From NCBI RefSeq assembly GCF_029227915.1, contig NC_079877.1:10913351-10977350 (forward strand): 64,000 bases of DNA. The letters are read 5' to 3'. Position numbers and translations under genes: made by a program. Positions 1 to 28,140 of the stretch are shown piece by piece. Numbering within the stretch: the first letter of the stretch is position 1; each line of letters starts with the position of its first letter. This stretch comes from Hydractinia symbiolongicarpus. Its lineage: Eukaryota > Cnidaria > Hydrozoa > Anthoathecata > Hydractiniidae. The notes under the pieces were generated by a model, which saw nothing but the letters and a program-made list of their open reading frames with translations, ran no database searches and was not told the origin of the DNA.

Positions 1-2116
1 CTTCTTGAGGCATTAAGACATTCGCATTAAATTTTGCCTGTTGTGTCTTAAGTAAAGTTTACCTTGACTGAACTTATCACAACAGGAGTCTAGGAGATCA
101 GGCTTTTGTGATGAAGAGCGTTCCTGCAAAAAACTGGAAACGAGGTTAATTGTCTCGATCCTTTTTAAGCTGGTCCCAAATTAACCGTTTTACAACAAAG
201 TCGATTACATTTCAATAGACTTAAGAGTATGTATAATCACTAACAAACTCATGAAGAACATATTTTCAAATTCGAGTGTTATATTATAAGATATAAATCA
301 CCTACTTAACAAATTTACAAAATAAAAATGTATACGAAAACTAACATATTTTTAAATCATACAATTTTTTCCCCATAAATAATATTGCGTGGAAGTCACC
401 AAAAAAACTTTTTTAAAGAACCGAAAAAAAATAAACTTCATGAAGGCCGAAAGGCGTTAATTTTACCCGCATCAAATCTAACTTTTTACAACATTTTATT
501 TCCATCTTCGTAGAAAGCTAATGTTGAAGTAATTATTGCCCTACGAGAAAATTTAGAAAATAAGTCGACATCAGATTTATGGACCGTATTTCACGCTACA
601 AAGCTTATATCTCATTTTATCTCCCACTACATTAGTTGCACTCTACAATACAATGCGTGAAATCGTTGTAATTAAATGTAATCAAATAAGTCAAATGGTC
701 AAATGTGTATTTTACAGAGCATTTTACATTTCTAACATTTCAGCCTACTGACTGCATCCTAAATTGTTAGTTACAACTCTATGTTGTAGAAATAATGATT
801 AGGATTGATCCATAAATGTCACAGAAATCAGGCAGCAGTTGCATTGTTATTGAAATAAAGTATAATAGATTGTAGAAATGTGCATTTTAACAACGAAAAA
901 ATAACGTGAACATACAAAAATTAACTAATTTTCAATTTAATTAACAAATTAATTGAATTTCCAGACAACAGAAATATCATATGATGACTTTATAAGACAC
1001 TTTTTAGTGTGTTGCGGACCAAAACATTTAGCTAACACCACAGTAATGCAAAGTCTCTCTCCGAGTTTTTCCACGGGGATATATACTAAAACGCTTGAAT
1101 GTTTCTCAGACAAAATCTTTCACTGTTCTCTTCATGGCAGATAACTTCCAGTCTTTCACATATAAAAAAGCTAAAGATGAAAAAGAAGGATAAAAACTAC
1201 GCGCGTGTGACCATGCATATTAACCACAAGTTAAATTAAATCACAATATAATAATTTAGACTAAATATTACAAAAATACAGAAGAATAAAATACAAAAAT
1301 ATAATATAAATACTCCGCTTTTCATATGATTTTTAAAAATCTAAAAATAAGAAGAAAGTATTCTTAAACTCAAACTTTTTTTGTTTATTGAAAGTCCTTT
1401 CCATGCAATGCTAAAAATCATTCTGATACAAAAAAATCAATATATCAATTACAAATAATCACTCGCATTTATATAAACAATATAGCTTCATACTCATTCA
1501 AAATAGATCTTCATAAAAATATAATAACAGAAGATCGTATTAACATATAAACATATATAAAAACAACCCCACTACTACAGCTATGATAAACATTATCAAT
1601 CTAACAAGAAGCCATTCCATTTCTAAAAAAAGAAACAGATAATATAAACGAGACAATAAGGATAAGTGAGACGCACAAGCCTGGCAAGAAAACCATAGTT
1701 TTAGAATACTCAGGGTGTAATTTAGAATTCTAGAATAGGAACCGTTACATCCCAGATCTTATTCGTTTACAACTTTCATGAAATAAATTATATCATAAAT
1801 CCGATATGTTGGAGAAAACATATTTCGCTACTGTAATAAAAAAATTCAGAATAAGATTAATGAGCGGACCAACAAAGTAAAAAATTTAGAAGCATTTTAA
1901 TTGGCGAAGTTTTCAAGCGATAACCAAGAGGAAATTCATACATAATAGAGCTAGAAAAGCATGTATTCATTGCACTGACCACCTAAACACAACTCGTTGT
2001 TAAAAAGCATGTAAAACAGAACAGAAAGATGTTCGGCTAGTTCAACAACGAATGATTATTCTAAATGAATTACAACTCCAGAATTCATACACCCCTCAAT
2101 AGAAAACACTACGTAC
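1..2116. other. Non-coding AT-rich flank
   Basis: No convincing coding exon, RNA gene or transposon terminus was found on either strand. The part nearest 2116 is probably the 3' UTR and downstream flank of the minus-strand receptor gene whose stop codon lies at 2117-2119. A 63-codon open frame near 953 has no splice or domain support. Confidence 0.4.
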
Positions 2117-5100: not shown

Positions 5101-8100
5101 TTGTTTTCACAAGAGTAAATTTCTCGCCCTGTTTCAAACCATATTTTCCCCATATGGTAACGGAATCTACTTGCATCAATACAGCATCATTACATTTTTT
5201 ATACATTGTACCTAATGTATTTACTTTTGCACCATTACCAAACTGAAGGTAATACATCACCCTGCAGTTACCAGTTCTTTCTCTTTTCCATGTCACATAA
5301 GTGCAATTATCTCTTTCGTAGAAATTACCACCCATTACTTTCGCTGGTACAACTAAATCAACAAAGATTGAATAAAATCTTACATATGAGTGACATTATT
5401 GAAGACTAGTCGATAAACCCCTGGAAAAATCCACTTAGGCAAAAGAACAATAGAAAAGACATGAAGTTTTAGGAGGTATTCTGATGAATTTAAAAAAATT
5501 GCTAAATCAATACATCTGGTGTTAAAACTATTTAAAATAACATTTAAGGTTACTGTAAAGGAAAAAACTCAATTGATAAGTAGTCTCAGAAAAACCCTTA
5601 TAATTTATCAATACTTTTATATTTATTTTTTTATATTTTTTATTTGTTTCTGAATGTTTGATGAAAGAATTTTTTGATGGTGTTATTTTCGTGAGATGTT
5701 AATTTTCTAAAAAGAAAATATAATGAATTAAACACACACCATTTTTTTTCATTGTACGTTTTAAAACAGCTTCATTTTCCGAACGCGTGGTCACAGACTT
5801 CTTGTTTTTGCACTATTACATTCAGCATAAATTAAATTCAAAAAGGTTCCCGTTTTTTTTTTGTAACAACGTCGTTATGAAATTATTTGTAATTATATAT
5901 AATCATTCAAAAAAATGCATATTACTTTCTTTCTATCGTCATAATTCGCTAATCAGTAATTTATACAAAAAAATCCGGGAACCTTTTGTGCATAATTTAT
6001 CCTGTTTCCAAGTTATGAGGCCTTGCATTGCAATGACTTCCATAATTTAAATTCAGGTCAGATTTAAAACTTTATAATTTTAAGAAAATTTTGGTTCTAG
6101 TGTGAAAATGCTAAAAAATGTATAAAAAATATTCGATATTTTAGAAGAAATGTTGTTCCTTTCAAATTACAGTAATTATGTAAAGAGATATTTAGACCTG
6201 TTACAAGACAAACAAATGCAGCCTTCTTCAGGAGAGGCGTGCAACCGCACGCGCACGCCTTGGCACATGCCTAAATTGTTTCAGGCGTGTGATTAATCGC
6301 AAGCCAAAAAAATAAATATTGAGTTTTCAAAATCAAATTATAAAATCCATTTTGTAGCGTGCGATGGCAGCCCTCGAAATAATTTTTGGAAACTCGTCAG
6401 ACAAAACGTTTGATAGATTTCCGTCATGGTCAGACAATAGTCCTGAACTCCTTGTTACAATGTTATATGGCTATGAAACTTACTGAGTTTCAATATTTAT
6501 CTATTAGACACCTGCATGCCAAATTTTTAGGTCCCATACCTTTCAGAGGCCTTGATATTGGCCATTACTAGAAACTACCCCTAAAAATCTCTATGAAATC
6601 CTTATAATGGGGAAAATCGATCCACGTAAAAACCGGAAAATATGTTAAGTAACTTTTATTTAGCTTTCAGAAACTTCAAACAGAATGCAAAAATTCTATA
6701 AGCAGATAGTGGCTTTTGTTAACAAATTTCAAGCTTCTGATGACATAAAAAAAATGTGCTGACGCAAGAGAAAAACTAATTGCTGCCATTTTGTTCCTTT
6801 TATGACGTACTATACAAGTGTGCCAAGTTTGATTCAATTTGAACAACCCTATGAAAAGTTATTGAGGGGGGGGTTGAATTTTTTTAAAGTTTTAAGTCAT
6901 ATAAAGTCATATTAAGTCATATATTTTTTGTCACATAAAACAAAGTTACTATTGGGGAAAAGAAATTGATACCACTGTAAACAATTTTAGGAGGAACCAA
7001 TATTTTTGGTTTAAATTTTGGGTTATTTAGGAGATTTTAGGGGTGTGGTGACCCTGTTTATATGCTACAATATCATGTCTTAACTCGAACTCATCACAAA
7101 AATAAAATGAGATATAAACCATTACAATTCAAAATTGAAAAAGTAGCACGATTTGCAGAATATACATATTTCTAAACCTTGATTTTCTCTTTAATATTCC
7201 CTTTGTGAAATTTGTTTGATCGAAAAAGGTTAATTGGAAGGAGATCTTGTAGCTGAATAGTAAGTCACTATAGAAAGCAAGTACATACGGGGTCAATATA
7301 TTTCAAGCATGAACACCATGCCCTGATAACCCAACAATCCCCAAGTAAGAGAGATTTTTAGTGTAAAAACAACTCACAAGTAACATTAACCATGGCACGA
7401 CCAGTGACACTTCCAAGGCGACTTATAGCCTTAAATATGATAGGTTCCCAACACTGTTCCCGAGACAGATTTTGATGCATATAGGTGTATCTATACAATT
7501 GTATTTCTTTATTTATGAGTCCAGAACTTGTGGAGTTTTTAAAGTTTTTCTCTGAAGCAAACTTCAATGTAACAAGAGGAGTTGGTTTGCCACAAACATC
7601 TTGTATGGCCACCAGCATACTACCTTCTTCTCTAGTAATTGCTGTTATGTTGTCACCACATAATTTTGGTCCACCTAAAGGTAAAGATAAAAAATTTTAG
7701 TTAATAAACCATAAAGTATTATAAATACCTAATGCTATCAAGCTTGTCACACAATAATCCATTTATACTACAGTAATTGAAAATTCAAGTTAGGCAAAAC
7801 TTCTAAACATTTATTTTGTTTTTGTTTCTGGATTATTAAGCAAAATTTGTTAAAAGATTAGTTTCGTGTTGCAATCTTCTACAAACCAAATTTCCAATAT
7901 TTTAGCTAAAATTGAAATGCATTCTGAGCATGTTTGATATTTATTTATATGCAATTTTTAATCCTAAAGCCTAAAGCCTGAAGGAGTGATCTTATTGAGA
8001 GGCCTGAATAAATGGTCTGTGCTTTAAAGGTTTAAAGACATCTAAACTGCTAAAATATTTTTAAAAAAACATTACCTTCAACATTTACAATATTGATATC

Positions 8101-9193
8101 CGCGACTCCTGTTCTTCTATTAAAATCATCCTTTCTTTCAAATGCCACTACAAGTGTGAAGTTATGGGAAGAATCTGTAAATTTGACATTTTTTAGCGTG
8201 AGCTTAAAAACTGCTGCATCTGCATCAAACACTGGAACTAATCTTGTTCCATACATTCGCTTTCCAACAGGTGTCAACTCTGGTGGTTGATTGCTTACAA
8301 TTTTAGTTCTATTTGGGAGATATATATCATGACTCTGTAACATTTCACCTTTAAGAAATGTGATTTGCCACTGCAGTGTTATGTCTTTATCTAACATGCC
8401 AGTTACTTCTGATTGACCATTCAATGGCTCGACATTTCCACCACAAACTAAAAAATTTAACATAAATAAAGCAGTTTTAAATTTTTGGACTGGACTTCTT
8501 TAAAAAATTACCAATTTGATGTGACTAAAATGTTTAACATACTTTTCTTGTTTTCAAGATATTCACATTTAAAGTTTTGAACATTTCATGTTGGCCCCAT
8601 TGAAATTGTCAATACTATCTATTGTCATGATCGTGTTAAGAAAATGAATTCAATCTTTATTAGCATTTCTAGTTACAGAAATAAAAAGGATTAAAAAGTA
8701 ATGGCCCTTAAATAGGAACTGTATATTCGTACGCACTTTAATATGACGTAAAGTGCGTATTAATAGTGTGTAGCGCTATTCAAATGTAATATATGACATA
8801 TTTACGCGGGAAAAAGGAAAAAAGAATCCTAACTCTAACCCTAACCCTAAAGCACTTTATGTACGAATAGCGGATGAACATATACGTACGCAAAAGTGGG
8901 CAAAAGTGCATACGAATATACACTACGCCTTGAAATATTTGCTTAATGCAAACCGTCAAGCATGCCTAAATTTTGAAGAAGTTAAAAAATGCTTTCATTT
9001 ATATTATTATATTGGCAAAGTTTGATTCTGTAGGTCATAAACTATTACTACAGAAAATATTAACAGTTTCAACATCATAACATCTTACTTTAACATGTGA
9101 ATATTTCAATAAGAATTTTAAAATATTTCCCATAGTAAACTTACCAAAATTAAGAAATAAACTGAAGGTTATGATTTCTTGAATTAAAGTCAT
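2117..9193 (-). CDS. Alr-like immunoglobulin-superfamily allorecognition receptor
   Basis: Eight exons join in phase into 494 residues: 9145-9193 (signal peptide, MTLIQEIITFSLF), 8076-8447 (V-set-like domain), 7378-7674 (I-set-like domain), 5044-5352 (Fn3-like domain ending in a Thr/Pro-rich stalk), 4256-4381 (transmembrane helix rich in Ile/Val followed by LKRR), 3869-3893, 3300-3333 and 2117-2389 (tail). The ectodomain exons are joined by phase-1 introns with GT-AG ends. The first domain lacks the usual B/F-strand Cys pair: the strands read ITLQWQITF and FTLVVAFE. The tail holds EYATPV, LYSKL, SNYAEI (an ITIM-like match), YPV and DYASI tyrosine motifs and ends in an acidic run. Known family: Hydractinia Alr proteins have this domain order, cysteine-poor Ig domains and ITIM/ITAM-like tails, and act as homophilic self-recognition receptors at the cell surface. 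That this gene is a functional family member is inference. The donor of exon 7 (GTTTGT) is weak. Confidence 0.72.
4464..4505. repeat. Perfect 20-bp hairpin in a receptor intron
   Basis: A perfect inverted repeat with arms at 4464-4483 and 4486-4505 (arm begins CATCATACTCCACAACAAAA) separated by only two bases. It lies in the intron between the transmembrane and Fn3-like exons. It could extrude as a cruciform or be a tiny fold-back element. Confidence 0.85.
5543..6000 (+). repeat. Dispersed repeat, copy 1, with an internal inverted-repeat element
   Basis: About 455 bp nearly identical by eye to 58471-58921. Its right portion is bounded by inverted repeats (5826-5852 and 5976-6000, sharing the core AAAAGGTTCCCG / CGGGAACCTTTT), suggesting a small non-autonomous DNA element. 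This copy lies in a receptor intron. Confidence 0.75.
8721..8921. mobile_element. MITE with 19-bp terminal inverted repeats
   Basis: Terminal inverted repeats at 8721-8739 (GTATATTCGTACGCACTTT) and 8903-8921 match with one mismatch. The trinucleotide ACT flanks both ends (8718-8720, 8922-8924), a possible target-site duplication. The interior carries a short run of CCCTAA telomere-type repeats near 8836-8853. There is no coding capacity. It lies in the intron between the signal-peptide and V-set-like exons. Confidence 0.65.
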
Positions 9194-10277
9194 TGTGTAT
9201 ATTCTAATTATGTGTGTTTTACTATCTAAAAAGAATTGTAAAGTAATGAGGAAACTATCACAATATTAGTTATTGAAAATTAACAAATTTCCTTTGTGTT
9301 ATTAAATAAGTTTTTCAGTAAAAGTTACGAGTATTCTTTAACCCCTTTTACAATCTGTGTTGATTTTTAAAATAATTTTTTAATCCTGGCCAATTATTAG
9401 AGAAAGTCAAGGTTAAGAACGGTAGATGTCTTTAGATAGAGTCTGGGTAAATTTTATGAACAAAACATACACATAACAGTCGAGAAATGCAACACCTCCT
9501 TTGAATAAATATATATCCAAAAATTGAGCCAGAAACAAATTAAACAAAATTATTTATATTTAACATTTGTCTCACACTTAAAAAACACAGAAGCGTTTTT
9601 AATGAGATATTGTTTATTTCTTCTGTAGTTCTCTTGAAATTTCAACATTTGTTATCCAGAATTAGTGGCATAAAATGTAGCTGATATTTTGATAGGTGCC
9701 TTTTGGATGTAAAAGTTTTAGGCATAAAAATAGTGACAATAATAAGCCAGGGTTTTAATGATTGGTGCTACTTTAATCATAGAAACTTTTGCAAGATGAA
9801 AAACTTGCCAAATCCAGTACTTCCACAATATATCTGGAATTGGGAAGTTTTTACCATAACTTTCAGAGTATTGTGATCTATAAATTTTCGCAACTTACTA
9901 AGAGAAATGAATATCCCCTATTGACATTTTTTTCATTTTTATAAATATTCATTGAAGCAACTTCTTTTTTGTGTTCTTGCAGATAAAATATCCTTTAATA
10001 TTGTTAATGATAGAAAAGGACGAATAGTCATTTCTAGAAATTGTTGTGATTGGCTTAATCTTTTACGCTACTGAAAAGCAGATTGGATTATGATTGGTTC
10101 TAACAAAATATTAGAGAGTGAAGTGTTTACTATAATTTTAATTAACAAAGAAAAAAGAAACAGATTAATAACTAAAGAATTAAACTGTGAATACAACAAC
10201 ACAAATTAATTTTGATAATTTATTACATATGCTACAGCTTGCTATTACATATACTACAGATTGCTACGACTACTTAG

Positions 10278-11668: not shown

Positions 11669-11802
<134 letters not shown>

Positions 11803-12073
11803 CATAGGAGATTATTTTTGTTCCGCTACAGCATTCGTTTGTATTACTTAGCAGAACATGGCTAACAGGCAACTGCGAAGTGAAGTTTTGAAACGCGCCC
11901 TGAAGGCATGCATCGTCCAACCGGTAATAAGAAAATATCAGGTAGTAGCCGTTCGTGCGATGTGGGGAAGTGATGTTGATGCCCGCGAGGTCATTTGGGG
12001 CAAGAGAATGCAGATGGAGAACATATTGCTTAGCAACGAACAAGTATCCTGTTTTTTTTCTTGTATTACCTAT

Positions 12074-15000
12074 ATGGCCAGACCTCGTAAGAGAAAGTCG
12101 ATGAGGAATGAAGGGGAGGAAGAAGAAGGAGCCGACTCTAGCAGTGAAGGTGATAACAGAAACGGCGCAAATGCGCCTGAAACATTTCCTGGCATTTCTT
12201 TCTGGATCGCGTGCGACTTGCCAAACTGTACCTTAAGTCAATTTGAAACAAATTTGTCGAAGTCTTTTATGCAAGCCGGGTTGAATTTAACAACGTGCAA
12301 TGCTATACAGACAAGAGGTAAATACTTGAACCTTTTAGTACTTGAAATACTGTCAATGTTTTTCGAATATTTTACGCCACATTTGATATTTGTAGGCAAA
12401 ACCAGTGCATTGCAAGCATTCTCAGGATCGTTATACCAAGTCTTGAAAGACCACAATAGGGAAGAAGCAAAACGGATAGTTGAGATATCCCATCGCACAA
12501 TGATTAGGAGTGCAGCTAGAGATGAAGGTGTTCAACTTGACCACGTTGCTGTAATGGAAAGCGAACAGTACTCGATGAAACCCTGTCAGTTAATTCTAAC
12601 AAAAAATATTGATAAAGAGGTATATCAAGATGTAATTCGTGGTTTATCCGAAATCAGATTTACATCGCTTGATTTAAAAGTAATTGATAAATCGGAAGGT
12701 AAGTTGCCACGAACAAATTTACTTACTTCTCCAATAATAAGACAAGTTTTTTGTAGAAGTTAAAACATGTTTTTACATTGTTACACGCATAGGCACAGAA
12801 GTAACTATTCCCGTTAAGCCAACTAACAAACTTTGTCAATCCGTGGATATAGTTCGAAGGATGATGGAGAGGAATAGCTTTGGACTGTGCAATGGAGGTG
12901 TATACAAAAAAATAGGAGAAAGCAGATACACATACGTTTACTGTTGTTCGGTGAAAAGCTATCTCTATCGCTCGTTGAAAAACAAAGCAATCGCCAACGA
13001 AATTACGCCAAATTTACGAGAGTTGGTATTTTTGCTGTCGGACGGCGAGTGTCAAATAATTGATCAAATAACTCTGGATTACAATTACATTGAATGCTTG
13101 CCAAATGGAGTTTGTTATAACATCGCCAAAAAATGTTTCGATGTCAAGCCAAATTTAAAGGGATCTCCGCGAGCATTCGTACGGTACTTTCATCGTGAGG
13201 GAAAAAATCCCGAACCAAAGCCATTTATAGAAGGTAATTGTTTTTACTTTTCTTTTAACGCGTTAAGAAAATGTGTTTTTTTTCTTTTAACGCGTTGTAA
13301 CATATCAAGGTGGTAGTTGTAACGTGTTGTAACGTATTGTAACTTGTTGTAACGCATTTTCAGTGAAAAAAATGTTTTTTTTTATCTTTTAACGCGATGT
13401 AACATATCAAGGTGGTAGTTGTAACGTGTTGTAACGTATTGTAACTTGTTGTAACGCATTGTCAGTGAAGAAAATGTTTTTTTTTTATCTTTTAACGCGT
13501 TGTAACATATCAAGGTGGTAGTTGTAACGTGTTGTAACGTATTGTAACTTGTTGTAACGCATTGTCAGTGAAAAAAATGTTTTTTTTCATCTTTTAACGC
13601 GTTGTAACATATCAAGGTGGTAGTTGTAACGTGTTGTAACGTATTGTAACTTGTTGTAACGCATTGTCAGTGAAAAAAATGTTTTTTTTCATCTTTTAAC
13701 GCGTTGTAACATATCAAGGTGGTAGTTGTAACGTGTTGTAACGTATTGTAACTTGTAACGCATTGTCAGTGAAGAAAATGTTTTTTTTTATCTTTTAACG
13801 CGTTGTAACATATCAAGGTGGTAGTTGTAACGTGTTGTAACGTGTTGTAACTTGTTGTAACGCATTGTCAGTGAAGAAAATGTTTTTTTTTATCTTTTAA
13901 CGCGTTGTAACATATCAAGGTGGTAGTTGTAACGTGATGTAACGTATTGTAACTTGTTGTAACGCATTGTCAGTGAAGAAAATGTTTTTTTTTATCTTTT
14001 AACGCGTTGTAACATATCAAGGTGGTAGTTGTAACGTGTTGTAACGTATTGTAACTTGTTGTAACGCATTGTCAGTGAAGAAAATGTTTTTTTTATCTTT
14101 TAACGCGTTGTAACATATCAAGGTGGTAGTTGTAACGTGTTGTAACGTATTGTAACTTGTTATAACGCATTGTCAGTGAAGAAAATGTGTTTTTTTTCTT
14201 TTAACGCGTTGTAACATATCAAGGTGGTAGTTGTAACGTGATGTAACGTATTGTATCTTGTTGTAACGCATTGTCAGTGAAGAAAATGTTTTTTTTTATC
14301 TTTTAACGCGTTGTAACATATCAAGGTGGTAGTTGTAACGTGTTGTAACGTATTGTAACTTGTTGTAACGCATTGTCAGTGAAGAAAATGTGTTTTTTTT
14401 CTTTTAACGCGTTGTAACATATCAAGGTGGTAGTTGTAACGTGATGTAACGTATTGTAACTTGTTGTAACGCATTTTCAGTGAAAATGTTGGCTCTTTTT
14501 CTTTTAACGTGTTGTAACGTATTGTAACTTGTTGTAACGTAGTTCTAAAAAAGGTGCACTGAACTACATTTGTAGGTGTCGAAAATAGCTTCCCAGATAG
14601 AAATGTGCGGTTGCGTTTTTATCAAAAATGGTACCAAATTTTGCTCGCCGGTCAGTATCCCATGAAAGAAAAGAAATTGTTGCTGGTAGGTCCTCCTGAT
14701 AGTGGAAAGACTAGTTGGTTTGCTCCATTTCAAGGTAATTAAATAAAGTTCGTGAAAACTTCTGACTTTTAGACGGCACTTACTGACATACATTTGTCCT
14801 TTTAGGCATTATTCCAGAAATGTACATTGCTGGCGTGGTTCGGGATGGTCGATTCTCAGGCCACCTGATAAATAGAAATACACAAGTCGTATTTATGGAT
14901 GAATGGACTAGCGACAGTCTATGTTGTGAAGATGCAAAAAGAATATTGCAAGGTAAGTCGATGTCGATGCAGTACATGAACATTTACTTTGAATAAAATG

Positions 15001-16205
15001 TGGCAATGTGCAGATGGAATACCACTTTCTCTTATAGGCGGCTTGGTTATGATCCCGCAAAAACACAAAGAACCGGCCCGTTTTCAATACAATTCGGGTT
15101 TTTTTATAACAACTAATATAATGCCGGACTTCGGAAATGGTGTAGATGGTGAGGCTATCCTGCGTCGTCTTGAAGTTTTCGAAACTAAGACACTTCGAGT
15201 GAAGGACAATAGCATAACAAGTAAGTATCTCATGAGAATAAATGATAACAATGGTGTAAATCAATATGCATAAAAATAAGTAATGACTTTTTTCCCGTAG
15301 AGTGGATGAGAATGCACTGCATGGAAGTATTTGTGTACGTTGCCAGCCAGTTGAAAGACATCTCGCTTTTCACCAGCGAAACCAATGTTGCGAAGAAAAA
15401 TCAAGTAGGCGCTGTGTACAACGACGTTGATTGCGATCCGTCGGTCTTCTTGGACGAAGAGCAAACATTGGAAGCATCTAGCAGTTGTCTAAGCACACGA
15501 GTTCAGATTGAGAATGCAGTTCCGCAAGAGGCTATCGACTATGCCATTATTGCGGCCGACGATAGGGATGGCATTTTGTACCATGCGCTTAACTTTGATC
15601 ATGAACTGTTTGACATAGAAAACAAGTTACACAGTGCTGAATATATGCGCAAAATGTACGAGATAGCCGCTGGGGCATGGGAGGAAATCTGCCCATTAAT
15701 TAATAACGATGAGACCTTGGTAGCATTCAAACGCCGTAAAAGGATCAACTGGCAGGGTAGTGACACGTTCTACGACACGTGGTTGCTTGCTACAAACTCC
15801 TGCCGCGATTGCTTCCCGACGAAAGAAATGAAGGAGCTCTACCCTGATTGGGCACAACTAATTGAGCAAGACGAAGACGAAGGAGAAGGTAGTAGCCACG
15901 ACCGCGAAGAGAACGAGGAAGAAGAAGAGGAAACAAACGAAGAGGAGGAAGGTCATAGGGAAGAAGAAGAAACAGAAGAACATGAAATCAATGCTCAGTC
16001 GACGAAACCTGTTTCCACTGTTAAGCAAGAATATATGCCGTTTTGTCCAGCAAATAACAGTACTGCTTTTATAGACCTCGTGTCAGATGATGAAAGTGTT
16101 CCTGAAATTTCTTCAGTAAAATTAGAGCTATTTTCCGCAGATAATTCAACCACTTCTCTCGATTGTGATGTTATCTGCATTAGTTCGGACGAAGAAGACA
16201 ATTAA
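12074..16205 (+). CDS. Superfamily 3 helicase, multi-exon
   Basis: Seven exons (12074-12317, 12396-12698, 12793-13233, 14576-14734, 14806-14952, 15038-15220, 15301-16205) all join across phase-1 GT-AG introns into 793 residues. The N-terminus begins MARPRKRKSM, a nuclear-localisation-like stretch, then an acidic stretch. Residues about 40-329 are an unrecognised region, possibly origin-binding. SF3 motifs follow in order: Walker A GPPDSGKTS (368-376), Walker B VVFMDE (410-415) and motif C SGFFITTN (451-458, sensor Asn 458). The C-terminus has a long Glu-rich run, then two SUMO-interaction-like motifs, FIDLVSDDE (749-757) and DVICISSDEED (782-792). SF3 proteins form hexameric 3'-5' helicases that melt origins in parvo-, papilloma- and polyomaviruses and related elements. 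I see no clear HUH nickase motif. The start could lie upstream: the frame is open to an ATG at 11858, adding 72 residues. Intron 1 is 78 nt with no in-frame stop, so its retention would keep the frame. Confidence 0.78.
13252..14541 (+). repeat. Minisatellite array of TTGTAAC motifs (left, + orientation)
   Basis: About twelve copies of a ~102-bp unit fill most of helicase intron 3 (13234-14575). Each unit starts near CTTTTAACGCGTTGTAACAT and contains five TGTAAC cores with varying next bases (ACG, ACT, ACA), separated by a conserved GTCAGTGAAGAAAATG and T-run spacer. The copies differ by only a few bases, indicating recent amplification or homogenisation. The same heptamer recurs inverted in the array at 16290-17490. 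Confidence 0.92.
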
Positions 16206-16289
16206 AAAAAAACTTTTTTGCGTTTTCCTTCCCTCATATCCCACCACATACTCCTTTTCTAAAGTGACATGCGAAAAGCGGTTTTCTCT

Positions 16290-17490
16290 ACAGAAATAGG
16301 TTACAAAGCGTTACAACGTGTTACAAGGCGTTACAATCAGCATGTCCATGCGTTACAAGGCGTTACAAGAATCACTCTAGCCATTTCCAAAAATTTCACA
16401 GTCATTTTTTTCATGGAAATAGGTTACAAAGCGTTACAACGTGTTACAAGGCGTTACAATCAGCACGTCCATGCGTTACAAGGCGTTACAAGAATCACTC
16501 TAGCCATTTCCAAAAATTTCACAGTCATTTTTTCATGGAAATAGGTTACAAAGCGTTACAACGTGTTACAAGGCGTTACAATCAGCATGTTCATGCGTTA
16601 CAAGGCGTTACAAGAATCACTCTAGCCATTTCCAAAAATTTCACAGTCATTTTTTCATGGAAATAGGTTACAAAGCGTTACAACGTGTTACAAGGCGTTA
16701 CAATCAGCACGTCCATGCGTTACAAGGCGTTACAAGAATCACTCTAGCCATTTCCAAAAATTTCACAGTCATTTTTTCATGGAAATAGGTTACAAAGCGT
16801 TACAACGTGTTACAAGGCGTTACAATCAGCATGTTCATGCGTTACAAGGCGTTACAAGAATCACTCTAGCCATTTCCAAAAATTTCACAGTCATTTTTTC
16901 ATGGAAATAGGTTACAAAGCGTTACAACGTGTTACAAGGCGTTACAATCAGCACGTCCATGCGTTACAAGGCGTTACAAGAATCACTCTAGCCATTTCCA
17001 AAAATTTCACAGTCATTTTTTCATGGAAATAGGTTACAAAGCGTTACAACGTGTTACAAGGCGTTACAATCAGCACGTCCATGCGTCGTCCATGCGTTAC
17101 AAGGCGTTACAAGAATCACTCTAGCCATTTCCAAAAATTTCACAGTCATTTTTTCATGGAAATAGGTTACAAAGCGTTACAACGTGTTACAAGGCGTTAC
17201 AATCAGCACGTCCATGCGTTACAAGGCGTTACAAGAATCACTCTAGCCATTTCCAAAAATTTCACAGTCATTTTTTCATGGAAATAGGTTACAAAGCGTT
17301 ACAACGTGTTACAAGGCGTTACAATCAGCACGTCCATGCGTTACAAGGCGTTACAAGAATCACTCTAGCCATTTCCAAAAATTTCACAGTCATTTTTTCA
17401 TGGAAATAGGTTACAAAGCGTTACAACGTGTTACAAGGCGTTACAATCAGCACGTCCATGCGTTACAAGGCGTTACAAGAATCACTTTAG
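16290..17490 (-). repeat. Minisatellite array of GTTACAA motifs (right, inverted)
   Basis: Ten copies of a ~123-bp unit lie just after the helicase stop codon. Each unit has six GTTACAA heptamers (the reverse complement of TTGTAAC), mostly as GCGTTACAA, plus a spacer with CACTCTAGCCATTTCC. One unit carries a short internal duplication (CGTCCATGCGT near 17078-17097). The orientation is opposite to the left array. The unit is divisible by three, which makes open frames across it look protein-like; these are not genes. Confidence 0.92.
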
Positions 17491-17620
17491 TCATTTTAAG
17501 TAGGAATGGGGATAAGTGTGCGTTTAATGAATGTCGCATTTGCGCCATTATTTGCATACTTAAAGGCTTACAGCGTGTAAGTTTCACCTAAATTGTGTGG
17601 ACGCTTATGTGTACGCTAAA

Positions 17621-17959
17621 ATGGTGAATGAAGAGGCAGTTGTGGTAAACGTTTCGGATAACGAATGCTCAGCATCTAAGGAGGTTTTACCGTTCTCACA
17701 TTCCTGTTCAACGCTGGCAATTTCCGTGGAAAAAAATATTGTTTGCCTATCAGATGATGAAGTTTTCCTAACTATACCGATAGCGGCTTTGAAGGGAGAA
17801 CCAAGTTTTTGCGAACCGCCTTCACACACGAGGGTACTTAATACACCAGATTATTGGCCAAATCGTAAGAGGAAAAAAAGCCTTTATGTGTACGCCGGTT
17901 TTGACTGTAACAAAGTTAAAAGACTATTTAAATATTCTGGTTTTCAAAAATCTTTGTAA
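17621..17959 (+). CDS. Small protein with SUMO-interaction-like motifs
   Basis: A 112-residue open frame starts at an ATG in good context (AAAATGG). No known domain was recognised. Two hydrophobic-acidic stretches, AVVVNVSDNE (residues 6-15) and IVCLSDDE (40-47), resemble SUMO-interaction motifs and echo those at the C-terminus of the helicase; a basic NRKRKK stretch (81-86) could be a nuclear signal. It lies downstream of the helicase and right array on the same strand, and its stop is only 38 bp from the stop of the convergent recombinase gene. It could be an accessory protein of the element or a detached terminal exon. The function is unknown; the nuclear, SUMO-linked role is inference. 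Confidence 0.55.
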   Translation: MVNEEAVVVNVSDNECSASKEVLPFSHSCSTLAISVEKNIVCLSDDEVFLTIPIAALKGEPSFCEPPSHTRVLNTPDYWPNRKRKKSLYVYAGFDCNKVKRLFKYSGFQKSL

Positions 17960-17969
17960 ATTTACAAAG
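17952..17969. terminator. Palindrome between convergent genes
   Basis: CTTTGTAAATTTACAAAG is a perfect 18-bp palindrome covering the stop codon of the small gene. It is followed by an AT-rich stretch before the recombinase stop at 17998. It may serve 3'-end formation on both strands; it also resembles two inverted partial copies of the TTGTAAC array core. Confidence 0.35.
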
Positions 17970-17997
17970 TTATTTTTATTATAAATACAATTTAAAC

Positions 17998-19644
17998 TTA
18001 TATAAATTGTTTTGTCTTCGCTCTAACCGCCAATGTACTAGCTTTACGGCTACAATGAAAGGAGTAGTTAGGATCTGCGAGAATGGAAGTCCATTTTGCA
18101 TTGCCATATTTTTGTAGCCCAGCTTGTAAAAACTTGTCCTCCATGGCACTAAAACTAACTTTTTTCTGTCTCGTTTGAACAGGTGTTTCGTGTTCCAAAG
18201 TACTTCCAGACGTTTTCACATTTTTGGTGTTACTATTGATTTCGCTTACAGTTAAAGTACACGTTGTTTGATCTCGTAATTTATCCATACATAACCTGGC
18301 TTTTGCAGCTATATTGCGCGATTCAGTCTTCTGGTAATGAACTTTAGCTACCTGCGACGTGTGTTTTTGATCTTGAGAAAGAATTGCTTGTTCTTTTGTT
18401 TCTAAGTGTGCAACACTTTCGGTTTCGATGATTTGCCTATATCGTGTAGGATTTATATACTTACCAATTGCTTGATAAACAATTCTACCGAATACGTCCG
18501 AAATACGCGTCAACTGCTTACCATTTCGACACACTAGTAGATAATCGTTGGTGGGGTTCAATCTTCGTCGTACATTGTCAATGTATTCGTTTATTAGTGT
18601 GAGTACATCTATGGAAAAATAAAGAGAGTCAAATCCGTATTTCTCCGCAGTTTTAAAGACATTCTGATCTATAAAACCATCCTCTTTCACGCCTTTAATC
18701 ATTGTTACTGTAAGAGTTTGATACGTCATGGGTCTTGAAGCCTTCACCATTAAAAATAATACAGCTACTATGAAGGAAGTCGAAAATGATAAATCGTGTG
18801 CTGCGACACATGCACTTGCGTTTTTAGCATTTAACACAATTTGTTTATATTTTTCACTATGGTATGGTATCACCTTTTGTAAATCATATAGTGTCGCCCA
18901 ACAGTCTATACTGTTTAGATATTCAACACTTAAGATACACTTCCATTCAGCTTTCATTTTACGAAGGAGGAATTTCTTAACACGGTGCAAATAAATCTCT
19001 GCAGCAACAAATACCGACAAATTTTTTTCAGTCGTACCTGTGCTTCGTCTGTAATCAAGCATGTGCCCAATAGCATTCATGTAGCCAATTATTCCTGAGA
19101 AGCCAACCTTCCATTGGTCTCTCAAAAAATCTACGAAATCAGAAAGCATATTAATAGAGCCAACACAGTAGTCGATAACAGGGAATGGTACTTCCCATAC
19201 CGAAGGAGAATCCTCGCAGCAATATTTGGCATACTTTAAAACTTTACAAGTTATTTGATCGGCCTGAGAATGATCTTTACCACCACCACCTGGACTTTTT
19301 AACCATGTCCTAAATGCAACTGCCAAATTACATGTTTTAGCAAAAGACGGCATTGAAAATGTGGAGGCGCGCTTTCTTTGGGGATCTTTTATGCGATTTC
19401 TCGTACTGAAGTGGGGAAGTACTTCGTCGATATTCGGTCTTTTATCGAAATAATAAAACCATCCATGACGGTTATAGACATGTTTTCTACACCCTCTTTT
19501 ACTTCCATACGACTCGCTGTCACAATCAGCCACAGGACAACAAAAGCGGTTATCTTTATCAGGCATTAACTTAAGCCTTTTCGATCTCATTGAGGCTCCC
19601 AATGCCTCTTTCCACGCAGGCTTTTGCAAGACTCGTTTTGTCAT
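17998..19644 (-). CDS. Tyrosine recombinase-like protein with C2H2 finger and Myb domain
   Basis: Single coding exon of 548 residues; the ATG at 19644 follows a likely 5'-UTR acceptor (TTTGTTTCTAG). Domains: a C2H2 zinc finger (C36, C41, H55, H60); an alpha-helical region (about 130-290) fitting a SAM-like core-binding domain; a catalytic-like domain with R304 (SRPMTYQ), R401/R403 (TRYRQ), H428 (KHTSQ) and Y437 (VHYQK), in the order of the Arg-Arg-His-Tyr set of tyrosine recombinases; and a C-terminal Myb/SANT-like domain (about 498-545: FSAMEDKFLQAGLQKYG and WTSIL), resembling telomere-repeat-factor Mybs. Tyrosine recombinases cut and rejoin DNA through the Tyr. Similar finger-plus-Myb proteins occur, from memory, as uncharacterised multicopy cnidarian proteins related to Crypton recombinases. 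It is convergent with the small gene and helicase. The catalytic assignment is by eye; a domesticated DNA-binding protein is the alternative. Confidence 0.65.
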   Translation of the reverse strand: MTKRVLQKPAWKEALGASMRSKRLKLMPDKDNRFCCPVADCDSESYGSKRGCRKHVYNRHGWFYYFDKRPNIDEVLPHFSTRNRIKDPQRKRASTFSMPSFAKTCNLAVAFRTWLKSPGGGGKDHSQADQITCKVLKYAKYCCEDSPSVWEVPFPVIDYCVGSINMLSDFVDFLRDQWKVGFSGIIGYMNAIGHMLDYRRSTGTTEKNLSVFVAAEIYLHRVKKFLLRKMKAEWKCILSVEYLNSIDCWATLYDLQKVIPYHSEKYKQIVLNAKNASACVAAHDLSFSTSFIVAVLFLMVKASRPMTYQTLTVTMIKGVKEDGFIDQNVFKTAEKYGFDSLYFSIDVLTLINEYIDNVRRRLNPTNDYLLVCRNGKQLTRISDVFGRIVYQAIGKYINPTRYRQIIETESVAHLETKEQAILSQDQKHTSQVAKVHYQKTESRNIAAKARLCMDKLRDQTTCTLTVSEINSNTKNVKTSGSTLEHETPVQTRQKKVSFSAMEDKFLQAGLQKYGNAKWTSILADPNYSFHCSRKASTLAVRAKTKQFI

Positions 19645-19856
19645 TCCGATTTCTTTAAAGTTCTCTAGAAACAAAATTTATAGAAAGTTTATAACAATAT
19701 TAGTTTTTAACAAAGCATAGAAAGTAGGATAAAAAAAAGAATTCATTTGAATAAAAAAAGAATCCTATTAACTATAAATTTAAAGTTTGAACAACTTACC
19801 TTATACTTTACTTCGTATACAAAGTATTAGTTGAGAAACTTCTCATTAAAACAATT

Positions 19857-19866
19857 CCTTTTTATA
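19857..19866 (-). promoter_or_regulatory. TATA box of the recombinase gene
   Basis: On the minus strand this reads TATAAAAAGG. It lies about 60 bp upstream of a good splice donor (AAG/GTAAGTTG near 19797), which would pair with the acceptor at about 19669 to remove a 5'-UTR intron before the ATG at 19644. Confidence 0.5.
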
Positions 19867-20287
19867 ATGAAGGACGCTCTCCATAGCAGAGTTAAGGTAG
19901 CAGCGAAAACGGAATTATTTCAAGTGGCACAATATAAATTAGACTGCAGAGTATTCATAATTAAATAACTATTCCTCAAGATAATCATTTCGCATATATT
20001 ATCGTTATGATATATAAAAGAATTCAACGGAACAAATAGAGTGGAACGATATATACCGTCACATAAATTCCATCAAATTCCCTATGGGAACGACACGTTC
20101 TTGTCTTGTGAGTAACAATAGAACAATACATTCCGCTTTTATAACAATGTTTTAATAAGTTGTTAAAGAACACCAAGTTCCTTAAAAATGGTTCTTTTTT
20201 AAAAAATTGGAACATGTAAAGTATTTAATGTGTTTAGGGTGTAAGATAATCGCACATAGAATCACGGACCATTATAATTTCATACGC

Positions 20288-20290
<3 letters not shown>

Positions 20291-20352
<62 letters not shown>
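20291..20352. repeat. (ATA)n microsatellite
   Basis: About twenty ATA/AAT units. It lies 3' of the minus-strand retrotransposon fragment at 20559-20852 and could be that element's terminal simple-repeat tail. Confidence 0.9.
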
Positions 20353-20354
<2 letters not shown>

Positions 20355-20558
20355 CTTAAAGTGGCTAGCCCAGAAAATCATAAAAACCTATAGTAAGTGG
20401 ATTGTTTACACTGGGGGCCACTAGAACAAAAAAGAAACTAAAAATAATAAACCTTAGACTGCCTCAGCTCAATCAAACATAGTAACATTTTTAATCTGTG
20501 AAAATTGAAAAGAAGAAGAAAAAAAATCAAAAATTAAAAAGTTAAAAAGTGATCTCCA

Positions 20559-20852
20559 TTAGGATTTGCCAAATACATTAGAGATGGTAGTCTTAAACGA
20601 AAGCAGACTTCCATCACAGGTCACTTGGTCTGGAAGATTATTCCACACTTTTGCAGTTCTAAATGGGAAGGCTTTTCTGCCAAATTCCGTGTTGACCAAG
20701 GGAAGTGTGAACCTGTTTTTTGAAGCTCCTCTTGTTTGATGATTATGACAGTTTTTTGTCGAAAGGAATATTGAGCGCATGTAATCAGGAGCAATGTGAT
20801 TCATGGCTTTGAAAACTAATATGGCATCGTTTTTGATGAGTAAATTATTCAT
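20559..20852 (-). pseudogene. Non-LTR retrotransposon reverse transcriptase, C-terminal fragment
   Basis: A 97-residue frame holds the region after the polymerase domain of CR1/L2-like elements: ILVFKAMNHIAPDYM, then TRGASKNRFTLPLVNTEFG, then FPFRTAKVWNNLPDQV, then a short tail. This ILVFK...P.Y...TR......P...T..G...F.....WN.LP pattern is typical of the C-terminus of jockey/CR1 polyproteins. Nothing upstream is intact, so it is a 5'-truncated dead copy. Confidence 0.75.
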
Positions 20853-23800
20853 TGAATATTCCCTCTCTTTCCCAAGAAAGGTACGGACACATTTTAATCG
20901 TTTTGAAAAATTCCATTACCCTATTAGAGGACGTACCACGGAGGCCACCAGGAAGGGCTGGACAACGAAAGCCTGTAAGGCTGAAGCATGAAAAAGAAAT
21001 CCGCTAAGGATTGAAAAATTTCAAAAATTTGAAAATTCTTTGTCGTTCATGAGCACAATTCCTCTTGTTATCAATTCCGATAACTTTTATTTACAAAACA
21101 CACCCCTCAGCCTTCCAAGATTTATCTGGATGTGTTTATTTCATGGACGGAGTTCCGCAAAGAAAGGGAGCGGGTCTGAATTTTTGCAGCGATATCCCGC
21201 TAACAGGACTCGAAAAAAATTTCTGAAGGCTCCTACTAACATATTTATAGTTATAAAAAGTAGAAAATCGGATCCTTTTAATACTTTTTAATTCAGTAAA
21301 ATTAAAACAATAAAAAAAAGCTTCAATAACTTAAAAAATGATAAAAATACAAAATTTTTAAAAAAATTGTGGAAGCCATTTTAATTTTGTCCACGGTTTG
21401 ACCGTTTGACCGTGTAGCAAACAAGCCGTGTGGCTAGTAGCTAAAAGTGACATATAGGTAACAGAAAAAATTACTTACTACACTAGCTCAACTTATAGTA
21501 TCTAAACACAGCAGCCTACATAAGCCCCAACACTAAATCCAGAACGTATCACCAAATGCATATCAAACGTTTTAGACAAAACGTCAGCAGAACACACAAA
21601 AGAAAATCAAGTAAAAAAAAATACTAGCTAACTTTGCTAACAATAAAAGGAGAAAGAACTTCACAGAATAATAAGCTTTGATCCTGTGGTGTACAATCAG
21701 CTAGCTCAAATGCTATATAATTGATTGCATATATAATTAAAACATTTATTAGTCATCAACAGCACGTCTCATCCCACAGGAATTATTTTCTTCTGATGAC
21801 CAATAAGGCGCTGTTCATTCCCAGATATGGAGTGCCGTTTTCGTATAAAATATGGGCCGCAAGGGAGGGTTTTCTCCGCGCCCGTACACGTGTAAAGGCG
21901 GTGATACAAGATTCAAACATAACAACATTTAAAAATCTTCTCGATTTATGGGTTTGTTTATTTATAGTTGTTTTTAAATTTTGAAAAATATTTACTCAGC
22001 TTTTGGGATTTTAGCAGCAAATTCTCGTCGGCTAATTTCCAGATCAAAAATGACCACAAAGTTTAAATTTCCATTTTTGTTTTTCTTTTAACAATGATTT
22101 CAACAATATAAATCAATCAACTTCAATGTTTTTCTTTTTTTTTAATTAAAAATTTTTCTGCTTTGGTTCTCAACTTCTACTTCGTTAGAGGGCTGTTCTC
22201 TTCTTCTTTTGGGCTGCTACACTCATTTGAAACGCTATTCAAATTGTTTTCCGTGTTCTCTTTTCACTGTTACATTTTCATAGATTCTTGAATTGAAAAT
22301 TGGGCAAAAATAAAAATGGCCAAAAAATCAAAAAAAAAAATCGGCAAAATAGTGCTTGTTAAACAAAGTCGGCAAGAATATTTAGGCCGGATAAAAAATA
22401 ATACCAATTAGCAAAAATTTGGTCACTGCTTGCGATTGTCGCAACATTAATAAAGAATCTTCGCGTATCTTAGTACATCATGGCTCTTAACATGACTAAT
22501 ACGCTAAAAATCATTTTTGCAAATAGCGATTTTTAAACGTGTGAAAATAAACCAACTTTAGGTTATAAATACTTCTTAGAAACTTTTAAGGACTCAAATT
22601 TGTGGCGATTTGGCGACTTTTGAGGAGAAATGACGGTGTTATCATAAAAGAAAAATGGCAACATTTTAGGAAACTTTCATATTTTTCTGGTGGAATTAAA
22701 AATATTTGAGATTCTAAAAGATAATGCCACGAGTCAAATTATTTCTGAAACCACATATGTATCATTTCTATGCATTTTAAAATTAAAAATATATGAGAAA
22801 CCATATAGTTTTGTAAAAGAAAAAGTAGGGAGATTTAAGTGCGAAGTTGTTAAAGAACTCTACTTTTAGAGGAGGACGAAAATAATTTTTTTTAAATTGA
22901 GGAGTTTTGAAGAGGCTACCCTGAAATGTCAGCGCGAAAAAATCCAGCGAAATTAAACATGTTTCGCATTTTGATGTGGGCGAAACACTCACGGAAACTT
23001 AAACCCCAAGACTATTTCTAACACCAAGGGGCGAAATGGAGATGCTTTGATAGTATTTTAAGCGTACCGAAACATAACATACGGGTGAAAATGTAAGAGA
23101 TTTTTAAAGGAAAATTTCGGATAGGAAGGAAGGTTAAATGGCAAAAAGAAAAGAATAAAAAATAGATTTGAATACCACACAAACTGACGGACGAAGAATA
23201 TGCTACCAGTCTAATTGTAGAATATACTGCCCACGATATACTAACTCATACATTTTGCAAAAACAAATCGCCATTTTTATATAGCCCCAGAAGAAAAATT
23301 TTGGTTCCACCGAAAAAGTTCAACTCTGCTGCTTCTGAATTACTGCTAGAACCTAAGAGTAGCACCCTTCTCCCCTATTCCCCAACTTAAATAGGGTTAA
23401 AATAGAATGTTCTTTTGAAGTGGGAGGATGTGAAAAAATCATCTGTGACAGTTAAGTGCATCACAAAATATTTATCTCAACACAAGTTATTAAAAAATAC
23501 ACATAGATATTGCTGGAATTTCCACTCAAGAACAAAAGAAGTCAAAAAAGGGACGGAACGGAACAAATAAAAATACTTTGGCCATCTTAATTTATTTTTG
23601 TTTTCAATAATTTCTACTTTCCTGTATTAAAAAAGTTTAAAATTATTTCCAATTTCACTATGGATTGGAACAAAAAATCTTTGTCAACCAATCAGATTTC
23701 AGAAATCGCAATTGCCTGATATCATTTGTTTTATTCTATTTTTGAATGGAAATTCGTCTCATCAAGCAGTGTCAATCAAAAGTATAAAAATTCTGACAGT

Positions 23801-24412: not shown

Positions 24413-26248
24413 TTAGTTAATCCAAGCATACGGAACAAAACCGTTCGCAACAGTATTCCAAAATTCACACTGCTTCTCATGGTAATCTCCTTTCAAAACA
24501 TCGATACCGCCATCTTGATTGAATACACCCGTTTGCGTGGACGTCCAATTTATTGAGCCTTCTTTCATGAATTGTAAAACAGTAGTTCGAATCGATTTCA
24601 TGAATTTCTTATCTTCTGAGTTAGGTTTGTAACCAGCTTGAACTTCCTTTCTTAATCCAAATAACGCATGACTATCCCAAGCGTGAAACGCATTAAACCA
24701 CGACAGACCATCGTATCTGATTGGTTCGTAAGGAGAATGAGTCACAATATATCTATAAACAGTGTGATGAACACTTTTTTGAAAATCATGAACTAGCTTG
24801 TTCGTGGGACACGTTACTCTAACATCAGCAGAAATAGTTTCGTATAAGTACTGCGCTGTTTTCAGCGTCCCATTTCTATAAGTCTGGTTCTTATACAAAT
24901 TCCCCCATATTTTGTCGACAAAGTTTGTTGTAAAATTATCCAGACGATTTTTAAGAAAGCTACGAAATTTGTTCCAAGAATCAACGCCTTCGAAAGTATG
25001 AGCAGGTTCATATGCGATTTCTTGAGCAGTGCTTCCTACTAAGACCGCAACCTTTTTTTTACTTTTGAAAGTTACATTGGCCAGCTCCTTAGGTGGCTTG
25101 ACAACAACATTACCATCAACAACAGCTAAAGCGCCATTAAGATAACCCTTCGTTGGAAAATCATACAGATTTAACATTCCCCAGTTGGGATATGTATTTT
25201 GCGGAATGGATAAAAACACTTCCTTTGAAGTTAAATTATACAAGCAAGAACGAATTTCATCTGCAGTGATAAACGTTATACATTTTGTCTTGTTGATAAA
25301 AACACGATTATCTCTTTCCGCATCTACATAAGACTTCTCAAACTTAGGAGATCCACTCATTGATATTGCTTTATGAAACAATCCATCAGCTAATGGAGAA
25401 GCAAGCAAACCAAAGATAGATGTACCACCAGAACTTTGTCCACAAATTGTAACAGAGTTAGGGTCACCTCCAAAGTTTTTGATGTTACTTTGGACCCATT
25501 TCAATGCCAGTATTTGATCCATAAAACCATAATTACCATCTGTTCCATTTCTTCTTAACTCCCTGAGAGTCAAAAATCCAAAAGCGTTCAAACGATAATT
25601 CATACTGACAGAAACAACATTCATTGAGGCGACAAACTCACTATCAGGTGAATAACCAACATCGTTGGGGAAACCACTAGTTAGATATCCACCGAATATC
25701 CACACAAATACTGGCAGCTTTCCTTTGACAGCAGGGGTGTGGACATTCAGATATAAGCAATTCTCAGATCCAACAATTTTTCCATTATCACTTTGTACAC
25801 ACTTGTTCCCAGAAGTGCTTGCATTAAATATGCCATTCCAACAATTTTTCTTGTCGAGACTTAATCGAACAGGTGGTGTCCACCTCAAATCACCAATAGG
25901 TGGCTTTGCATAAGGAATACCTTTAAAAACATATGTAGTTAGAAACTGATGTTCTACCTTTGCACTTTCTTTGTAGCCCAAGACTGGACCACATTCTGTG
26001 TACACAATCACACTAGCTTCACGATTGTTGTTCATAAGCTTTACCCGAGTATGAAGCGATATGGCTACAATAATACTACTAACAGACGCGATAATCACAA
26101 GTAAAGCAAGCACAAGTTTAGTCGTCTTTCCCCATCTTTTCTGTTTATGAGAAGCAGTGTAGTTCATGGAAGATTTTGCGTTAAAAATATCGATATCACT
26201 ATCTGATTCCGAAAATTGTGGAAGGGGATCGTATTTATTTCGTTTCAT
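24413..26248 (-). CDS. Membrane-anchored carboxylesterase/cholinesterase-like protein 1
   Basis: An intronless coding region of 611 residues. I chose the ATG at 26248 because just upstream a T-run and AG look like a 5'-UTR splice acceptor; the frame is open 21 codons further. Topology is type II: about 44 cytoplasmic residues with an acidic Ser/Asp cluster, one transmembrane helix (about 45-65), then an extracellular or lumenal alpha/beta-hydrolase. Family marks: YVFKGIPYAKPP, SENCLYLNVHTP, FGGDPNSVTICG, nucleophile elbow GQSSGG with Ser 272, acid Glu 410 (TAQEIAYE) and His 522 (NAFHAWD). The oxyanion-hole His-Gly-Gly is changed to FGG (185-187). Enzymes of this family hydrolyse carboxylic esters; relatives such as neuroligins are adhesion proteins. 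The substrate is unknown. It is the first of three head-to-tail paralogues. Confidence 0.88.
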   Translation of the reverse strand: MKRNKYDPLPQFSESDSDIDIFNAKSSMNYTASHKQKRWGKTTKLVLALLVIIASVSSIIVAISLHTRVKLMNNNREASVIVYTECGPVLGYKESAKVEHQFLTTYVFKGIPYAKPPIGDLRWTPPVRLSLDKKNCWNGIFNASTSGNKCVQSDNGKIVGSENCLYLNVHTPAVKGKLPVFVWIFGGYLTSGFPNDVGYSPDSEFVASMNVVSVSMNYRLNAFGFLTLRELRRNGTDGNYGFMDQILALKWVQSNIKNFGGDPNSVTICGQSSGGTSIFGLLASPLADGLFHKAISMSGSPKFEKSYVDAERDNRVFINKTKCITFITADEIRSCLYNLTSKEVFLSIPQNTYPNWGMLNLYDFPTKGYLNGALAVVDGNVVVKPPKELANVTFKSKKKVAVLVGSTAQEIAYEPAHTFEGVDSWNKFRSFLKNRLDNFTTNFVDKIWGNLYKNQTYRNGTLKTAQYLYETISADVRVTCPTNKLVHDFQKSVHHTVYRYIVTHSPYEPIRYDGLSWFNAFHAWDSHALFGLRKEVQAGYKPNSEDKKFMKSIRTTVLQFMKEGSINWTSTQTGVFNQDGGIDVLKGDYHEKQCEFWNTVANGFVPYAWIN

Positions 26249-28140
26249 ACTAAAAAAAAAGAAGACAATAATAGGATAGAATAAACAGTAAATAAGCAAA
26301 TCAGAAACCATCTAAACCTGTGAAGGATTTGTAATTACTCTGTGATGAAAACACTTTGATTTCTGTTTAACAAAGATAGGCGTTGCAATTTAAAGTTTAT
26401 TAAACTTGAAAAGTATCTTAAGATGGAAAAATTAAATTGGACAGATTTTATAAACCTTTTCTTTGAGTTTTTAGTAGTCATTTCAAAACACAATGCATAT
26501 ACTCCGGTAATAGTTTTATATTTCATTCTGTCTGATGCCTATTCTTTATGTCGTATGACATATATAGATCAAAAGGTCAACAGAAAAAGACAGTACAGAG
26601 AATTTACAAAAAAACCTGCAGCCGAACACAGATAAAGAGTTGAATATGATAATGATGATTAGCTAGCTATAATATAAAAAATAAATCTAGATACAACTGT
26701 AAGATCCAAACGAAAACATTAAACTAGCTAATAAAAAAAACATTTTGAAATCCCAAATGGCATGTTTAACATGGTAATAAAAACTAGAAAGTCCCGATAT
26801 AGTTAGCCACCAACTATTAGATCTTGAGCATTACAGAATAAATTGAACATATATAGAAGCAAAAACCTATCAAAAAAATTAATTATTAAATAAAGCTTGT
26901 GCCATGTATACTCGACAAAAAAGCTGTTTTCTGAATTCATCAAAAAATTGATGTTAATATTTATTATCCATCCCAAGACTTTTTGTTTCTAATATAACAG
27001 ATAAATATATACAGTCTTTTAAAATAGACGACACATTTTACATTGTATAGTACTCACAAAATTAGAATAAATATAGTATTTAATTTAACATTATTAGGTG
27101 CAAAAAATTTTTGTTGGCAAAAATATTTGTTTAAAATTCGCGAAAGTTTCTGTTTATAATATATAAGCACGTAAAGTATATAAAGGGTTATTTACACTGC
27201 TACAGTATATATTGTACACAATTAATTGTACAAAATATTGTACAGGTTTAACTATAAGATCTACAATATATTGTGACTTAAAAGGTCACAAGTTTTTTCA
27301 ATTAAATCAGTTGGAATAAAAAAACTAGTAGCCGGTTCTTATTGAATGAATTTCAAAAGTAGTGATTATGTTTTTGAATGTTTTCTGCGCATTTAAACAT
27401 TATCCAAAACAAAAGAGTGAACTACATGTTGTACATATTTGTACAGCATTTTACACTAATTAGTACAAAAAATTGTACAAAAATTGCAATATTAAAATGT
27501 ATTAGAACAAACAAACAAATAGCAGAATGAAGCAAAAGATGTAATGATTAGAGCGAGTTAAAATAAATATATACTATCTATGCAATCATTGCTGATTATC
27601 ATTGTTATCGAGAAGTTGTTAATCACGATGAGTGATCATTAAAACGTATAAAAATAAAATCATTTACATGATTATCATAAAAAAAATATCTTGGTAAAAA
27701 CAGGTAAATGTTGTCATGTTTCGCGTACATAATTATAATTTTTAAAACTTATTGATCATGCTTAATAAATAAAAACAATGATTGTGAAGACAATGTCTAC
27801 TACAATAGTAAGATTTAATAACACTGATATTATTAGCATTTAAAACTAGATATTTGAAATATATATACATGTTTTTCACGCCTTTTGAAATAAACAAGAA
27901 CAACAATTACACCTCTATGTCCCAATATAAATTACATAAGTTACAATAACTTCTAAATAAAATTGCTAAGATAAATACAAAAGAAACAACGCATTATACT
28001 GTAAAAAAAGAATCGAAAATTAAGGAAATTAATAGTAAAAAATATAAATATAAAGTGTATAAATATTATCCCCCTAAAATTGAATTTCCATTCAATATTT
28101 ATTCCCATAAAGTAAACACAAAAAAATATATATAGAAAAA
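26249..28140. other. Intergenic region between esterase paralogues 1 and 2
   Basis: No coding gene is supported. It contains the presumed promoter of esterase 1 and the 3' UTR of esterase 2. Between about 27200 and 27480 there is a cluster of TTGTACA-type short palindromes in two groups, perhaps a decayed fold-back element. Confidence 0.35.

Follow-up and report, generated by a model that had tools for sequence, protein, structure and literature searches.

The window analyzed here, a 64,000-nucleotide stretch of genomic DNA from Hydractinia symbiolongicarpus, a colonial hydroid (contig C3, positions 10913351-10977350, in an assembly of 480.9 Mb whose contigs we label C1, C2, C3, etc.), contains a unit of about 8.5 kb that combines a tyrosine recombinase (YR), a putative virus-type replication helicase of superfamily 3 (SF3) and two origin-like repeat arrays, and whose copies lie within TAA microsatellites. 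Borders read in 21 copies place the element at 11802-20290 (8489 bp, no strand assigned), most of which is occupied by the arrays and the convergent helicase and recombinase genes. A first-pass annotation of this DNA had proposed an integrative element or endogenised virus at 11803-19900; its left edge was within one base of the border derived from the copies, while its right edge fell short of the border at 20290.

The helicase gene, on the + strand, is built of seven exons: exon 1 (11858-12317), read from the sequence and starting at ATG 12074 or 11858; exons 2 (12396-12698, GT-AG, phase 1) and 3 (12793-13233), both delimited by eye; exon 4 (14576-14734) with Walker A, GPPDSGKT; exon 5 (14806-14952) with Walker B, FMDE; exon 6 (15038-15220) with motif C, FFITTN, and an Arg-finger-like pair; and exon 7 (15301-16205), an acidic C-terminal tail placed by sequence and an NCBI model. 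By eye, GT-AG splice sites in phase 1 could be assigned to each of the six introns. The NCBI model, P0126, represents a second copy, with which the last exon shares 297 of 299 residues; it supports the 15220/15301 junction only and does not include the Walker exons. The three motifs occupy consecutive exons with the order and spacing of SF3 helicases, judged by reading the sequence against the motifs of that family, and on this reading of motifs the spliced SF3 helicase predicted by the first-pass annotation stands. The motif C exon matches TIGR01613 (P4 primase) at E 8.8e-4, under the model cut-off, and helicase pieces give sub-threshold matches to DUF5906 (E 0.049) and a PHROG DNA primase. 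A PDB sequence search with three helicase pieces returned nothing useful, and a fold prediction for P0126 reached a pLDDT of 34.6 and was set aside. Protein searches with the last exon retained none of 267 candidates at E 0.001 and one of 120 at E 10, from the same species; no helicase relative outside Hydractinia was found in the protein collection, where spliced genes are hard to find.

The recombinase (548 amino acids; 17998-19644, - strand) is present among the NCBI proteins of H. symbiolongicarpus (P0006, LOC130629800). It carries an N-terminal CCHH zinc finger (19465-19539, - strand; C36, C41, H55, H60) and a C-terminal TRF-like Myb domain (18003-18165, - strand), the latter recognized by profile and by structure. 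Its probable catalytic residues are strongly conserved among the 120 homologs listed (R304 in 118, K331 in 119, R401 in 120, R403 in 119, H428 in 118, Y437 in 119) and provide the Arg, Lys, Arg, His and Tyr of tyrosine recombinases, with a His-Tyr distance of 9. Sequence profiles from Pfam, NCBIfam and PHROGs did not recognize a YR: PF00589 is absent from the Pfam matches shown for 51 family members, which include two weak SAM-like matches, and hhalign against 7 phage integrases, some of them partial, gave nothing. We assign the protein to the YRs because it matches YR structures. The Arg-Arg-His-Tyr pattern, C2H2 finger and Myb domain previously read in this convergent protein were thus all borne out, the recombinase domain being matched by structure and not by sequence profiles. 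In all, 666 relatives of the recombinase were found.

Array 1 (12.4 x 102 bp; 13265-14522) lies inside intron 3 of the helicase gene with TTGTAAC boxes on the + strand, and array 2 (9.8 x 122 bp; 16293-17496) lies after the gene with its boxes on the - strand, the arrangement of two opposed arrays of one heptamer described in the first-pass annotation. The heptamer occurs 57 times on the + strand in the first region and 60 times on the - strand in the second, and never in the opposite orientation in these regions. The 8-mer TTGTAACG is found 34 times on the + strand in the array 1 region, 40 times on the - strand in the array 2 region and once elsewhere in the 64 kb; across 30 first-order resamples of the window, its + strand count never exceeded 1 per 1.3 kb. 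Most boxes are spaced by 10 or 22 bp, about one or two helical turns, except at the step into the next unit (10 bp in 27/54 steps and 22 bp in 11/54 for array 1; 40/59 and 9/59 for array 2). A five-box pattern with spacing 22-10-10-10, searched with up to 4 mismatches although most matches had none, has 11 occurrences in array 1 and 9 in array 2. In the consensus, a sixth box precedes it by 10 bp, without mismatch in array 2 and with a single mismatch in array 1. When the consensus sites of the two arrays are compared, boxes agree at 35/35 positions and linkers at 8/24. Box letters formed part of the search, and the informative result is therefore the common spacing together with the drifted linkers, the pattern that constrained binding sites would show. 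An old inverted duplication, homogenized within each array, could nevertheless look similar.

Searching the genome with the recombinase produced 57 matches, each fragment counted separately, and searching it with the last helicase exon produced 47; once extra pieces of one place were dropped, these came to 37 and 32 places, respectively. Twenty of the 57 recombinase matches, spread over 10 contigs, cover residues 1-558 with 97-100% identity; 16 of these full copies are free of stops, and seven, including that of the window, tie at the top score with 100% identity. At the DNA level, seven other copies differ from the window's recombinase by 0-3 bases in about 1.67 kb. The helicase exon lies within 2.1 kb of the recombinase, in convergent orientation, at 23/23 near-full copies, and only 1 of the 32 helicase places lacks a recombinase. 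Beside older recombinase fragments, a helicase piece is found in 8 of 14 cases (7 convergent) and none in 6. Over the aligned parts, Walker A, Walker B, motif C and the last exon are kept at 96-100% in 20/20 other copies, in four of which the last exon is incomplete or split. Diverged copies on C7 and C8, with 57-71% identity and stops, suggest a long residence in this lineage. Element length ranges from 6824 to 8939 bp in 19 other copies, or 6.8-8.9 kb across 20 including that of the window. Array 2 varies among copies from 4 to 11 BLAST matches. On C4, three tandem copies have 1522 bp between helicase and recombinase and a fourth has 790, a gap of six 122-bp units; two units with the same distance of 1522 bp measure 8074 and 8278 bp by their spacing, a gap of two 102-bp units. 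As these gaps are multiples of whole units, units of both arrays appear to have been gained and lost entire.

The ends of the element were compared in the window and 20 other copies, with TATATAA and decayed cases classed from printed sequences. In the window, the element starts with CCATAGGAG and ends with CATACGCTAT, between a (TAA)44 microsatellite on the left (11670-11801, + strand) and an (ATA)20 microsatellite on the right (20291-20350, + strand); the recombination core lies at an ATAA/CC boundary on the left (11798-11803, + strand) and at CTAT/ATAA on the right (20284-20294, + strand). Among the 21 left ends, a clean (TAA)n precedes 8, and (TAA)n plus the TATATAA of the element itself precedes 7; a slightly decayed TAA tract stands before 1 and the right end of another copy before 5. 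The 21 right ends run into (ATA)7 or more in 14 cases and into another copy in 5; one (C6) continues into other sequence after ATAA, and one (C2:18273300) was not found. Such TAA tracts make up 0.4% of the window, both flanks included, and orientation relative to the TAA strand is identical in all copies with TAA-type ends. Outer flanks are unrelated, apart from one repeat common to the right flanks of the window, C1 and C9 copies (97-99%) and 252 bp common to two left flanks. Besides TAA, a comparison of the borders for terminal repeats, inverted or direct, showed only short matches, chance-sized by eye. At three places (C4, C9, C10), units are joined right end to left end, and the five tandem junctions read CATACGC-TATATAA-CCATAGG with no microsatellite between units, one (L23) with one base changed.

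With dispersed copies, common borders and differing flanks, this is a mobile element: the recurrent pairing of both genes, in many copies with shared edges, bears out the integrative element of the first-pass annotation. We are confident that it is moved by its YR with TAA repeats as target, and consider it probable that the element is an animal replicon that is both mobile and integrative. The defined unit, its target, its fixed orientation, the circle-type junctions and the regular co-occurrence of YR, helicase and arrays are seen directly; the following mechanism would account for them. The recombinase may pair both ends at the 7-bp TATATAA core, closing or opening a circle, whose core would then be crossed into a TAA repeat much as an integrase acts on attP and attB. 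We infer from their sequence that the tandem junctions correspond to the junction of a closed circle, and the two types of left end may be the alternative products of a staggered exchange inside the core. The SF3 helicase would load at the phased TTGTAAC boxes, directly or via a box-binding protein, candidates for which are the recombinase Myb domain and the N-terminal portion of the helicase protein; the helicase would unwind the circle, and host polymerases would copy it, raising copy number. Self-replication of the element is plausible, and we lean toward replication driven by the helicase.

The alternative that fares best, though we think it improbable, is a Crypton-type YR transposon that moves by cut-and-paste, has a helicase-like gene as a mere passenger along with satellite arrays, and gains copies only via host replication. 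A YR alone could explain the borders, orientation and tandem junctions, the helicase activity is putative, and array copy number differs between copies; a passenger role sits less well with motif exons so conserved in all 20 other copies, even if these are young, with the helicase pieces that persist beside over half of the older YR fragments, or with the box spacing that both arrays keep despite differing linkers. Less likely still is a degraded endogenous DNA virus, kin to polinton-like viruses or virophages, that lost its capsid genes and survives as a transposon. Both SF3 helicases and YRs occur among those viruses, according to sections of PMC4642659, yet six ORFs (open reading frames) scanned in the region had no Pfam match to a major or minor capsid protein, packaging ATPase or polymerase, the helicase gene contains introns, and the measured copies are small. 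IMG/VR, scanned with the YR, its alignment and four helicase pieces (the Walker B exon not among them), yielded pattern-matching stretches, none of which was confirmed as a relative by tblastn, and the endogenised virus first suggested for this locus is accordingly disfavored. That unequal crossing-over or an assembly error, and not circles, produced the tandem copies is very unlikely, even with tandem joins at three places only, as crossing-over between flanking microsatellites would leave TAA between units, which all five junctions lack while having the TATATAA core in common; the C4 units may have been multiplied by unequal crossing-over later.

In bacterial P4-type satellites and integrative plasmids, a single circle carries a YR integrase, a replicative helicase of SF3 type and origin repeats. 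They are the closest working parallel to this probable integrative replicon, whose motif C exon weakly matches the P4 primase model; the differences are an animal nucleus, a spliced gene and a TAA microsatellite target, as opposed to a tRNA-type site. Few animal transposons are known to have their own replication machinery, Helitrons and Polintons among them. If our interpretation is true, the logic of a bacterial integrative plasmid (replicative helicase, iteron-like arrays and YR) has been brought into an animal nucleus, where TAA repeats offer an abundant and probably harmless type of site, and the element would link small DNA viruses and transposons. Since several copies encode an identical recombinase, its activity is testable in a laboratory animal.

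Like Cryptons, the element has a YR as integration enzyme, few genes and a short common core, and it is a YR DNA element without retro genes as far as Pfam matches among the six ORFs scanned tell, none of which was to a reverse transcriptase. Most fungal Cryptons have 6-bp terminal direct repeats, in the portion of PMC3212892 that treats them, and the helicase, box arrays, CCHH finger and Myb domain set the present element apart; the words helicase, Myb and microsatellite do not occur in the main text of that paper. A circular donor has been proposed for polinton-like viruses and YR-bearing virophages (passages of PMC4642659), which carry capsid and packaging genes, none of which were recognized among the ORFs scanned here. 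DIRS and Ngaro elements have a YR as well (excerpts of PMC12440569) and differ by their reverse transcriptase, to which no ORF scanned here gave a match. No animal element of this make-up was found in the literature searched, which comprised titles and abstract openings, mostly open-access, with Repbase outside its scope, nor in the available parts of PMC11071296, PMC12440569, PMC6431247 and PMC10411563. We therefore call it a new variant among YR-borne elements, possibly a class of its own. The odds seem even that it represents a new class of mobile DNA in animals: a nuclear integrative plasmid devoid of a capsid and equipped with its own spliced SF3 initiator-helicase, an origin made of two inverted iteron arrays and a YR directed to microsatellites, recently active in Hydractinia and perhaps wider, judging by the number of recombinase relatives.

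The element also contains a small ORF of 112 amino acids (17621-17959, + strand) without a Pfam family, which is matched over its full length at the DNA level in 15 of the other 20 copies, gives a shortened match in the four C4 tandem copies and is split in one. These four copies (C4:15236474-15262471) also vary in array length. Short hydrophobic-acidic stretches in the small ORF and in the helicase tail (16060-16200) resemble SUMO-interacting motifs.

Just outside the right border, the repeat common to the C1 and C9 right flanks spans 20352-20904. It includes an ORF (20559-20852, - strand) that by eye resembles the end of a reverse transcriptase of a long interspersed nuclear element (LINE) and has no Pfam match; the TAA tract beside the window copy may therefore be a LINE tail. 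Elsewhere in the window, an apparent spliced membrane-protein gene (about 2100-9200, - strand), recognized by eye, has repeated extracellular domains and a cytoplasmic tail, one exon tested having no Pfam match; it may be of the kind known from Hydractinia allorecognition. Three adjacent ORFs of 632, 632 and 635 amino acids (24413-34197, - strand) begin with a carboxylesterase (E 3.8e-92), the other two being alike by eye. A transposase ORF at 47838-49560 (+ strand; PF13843, E 1.1e-49), which we take to be of the piggyBac type, is followed by a short Cys-rich ORF without a Pfam match.
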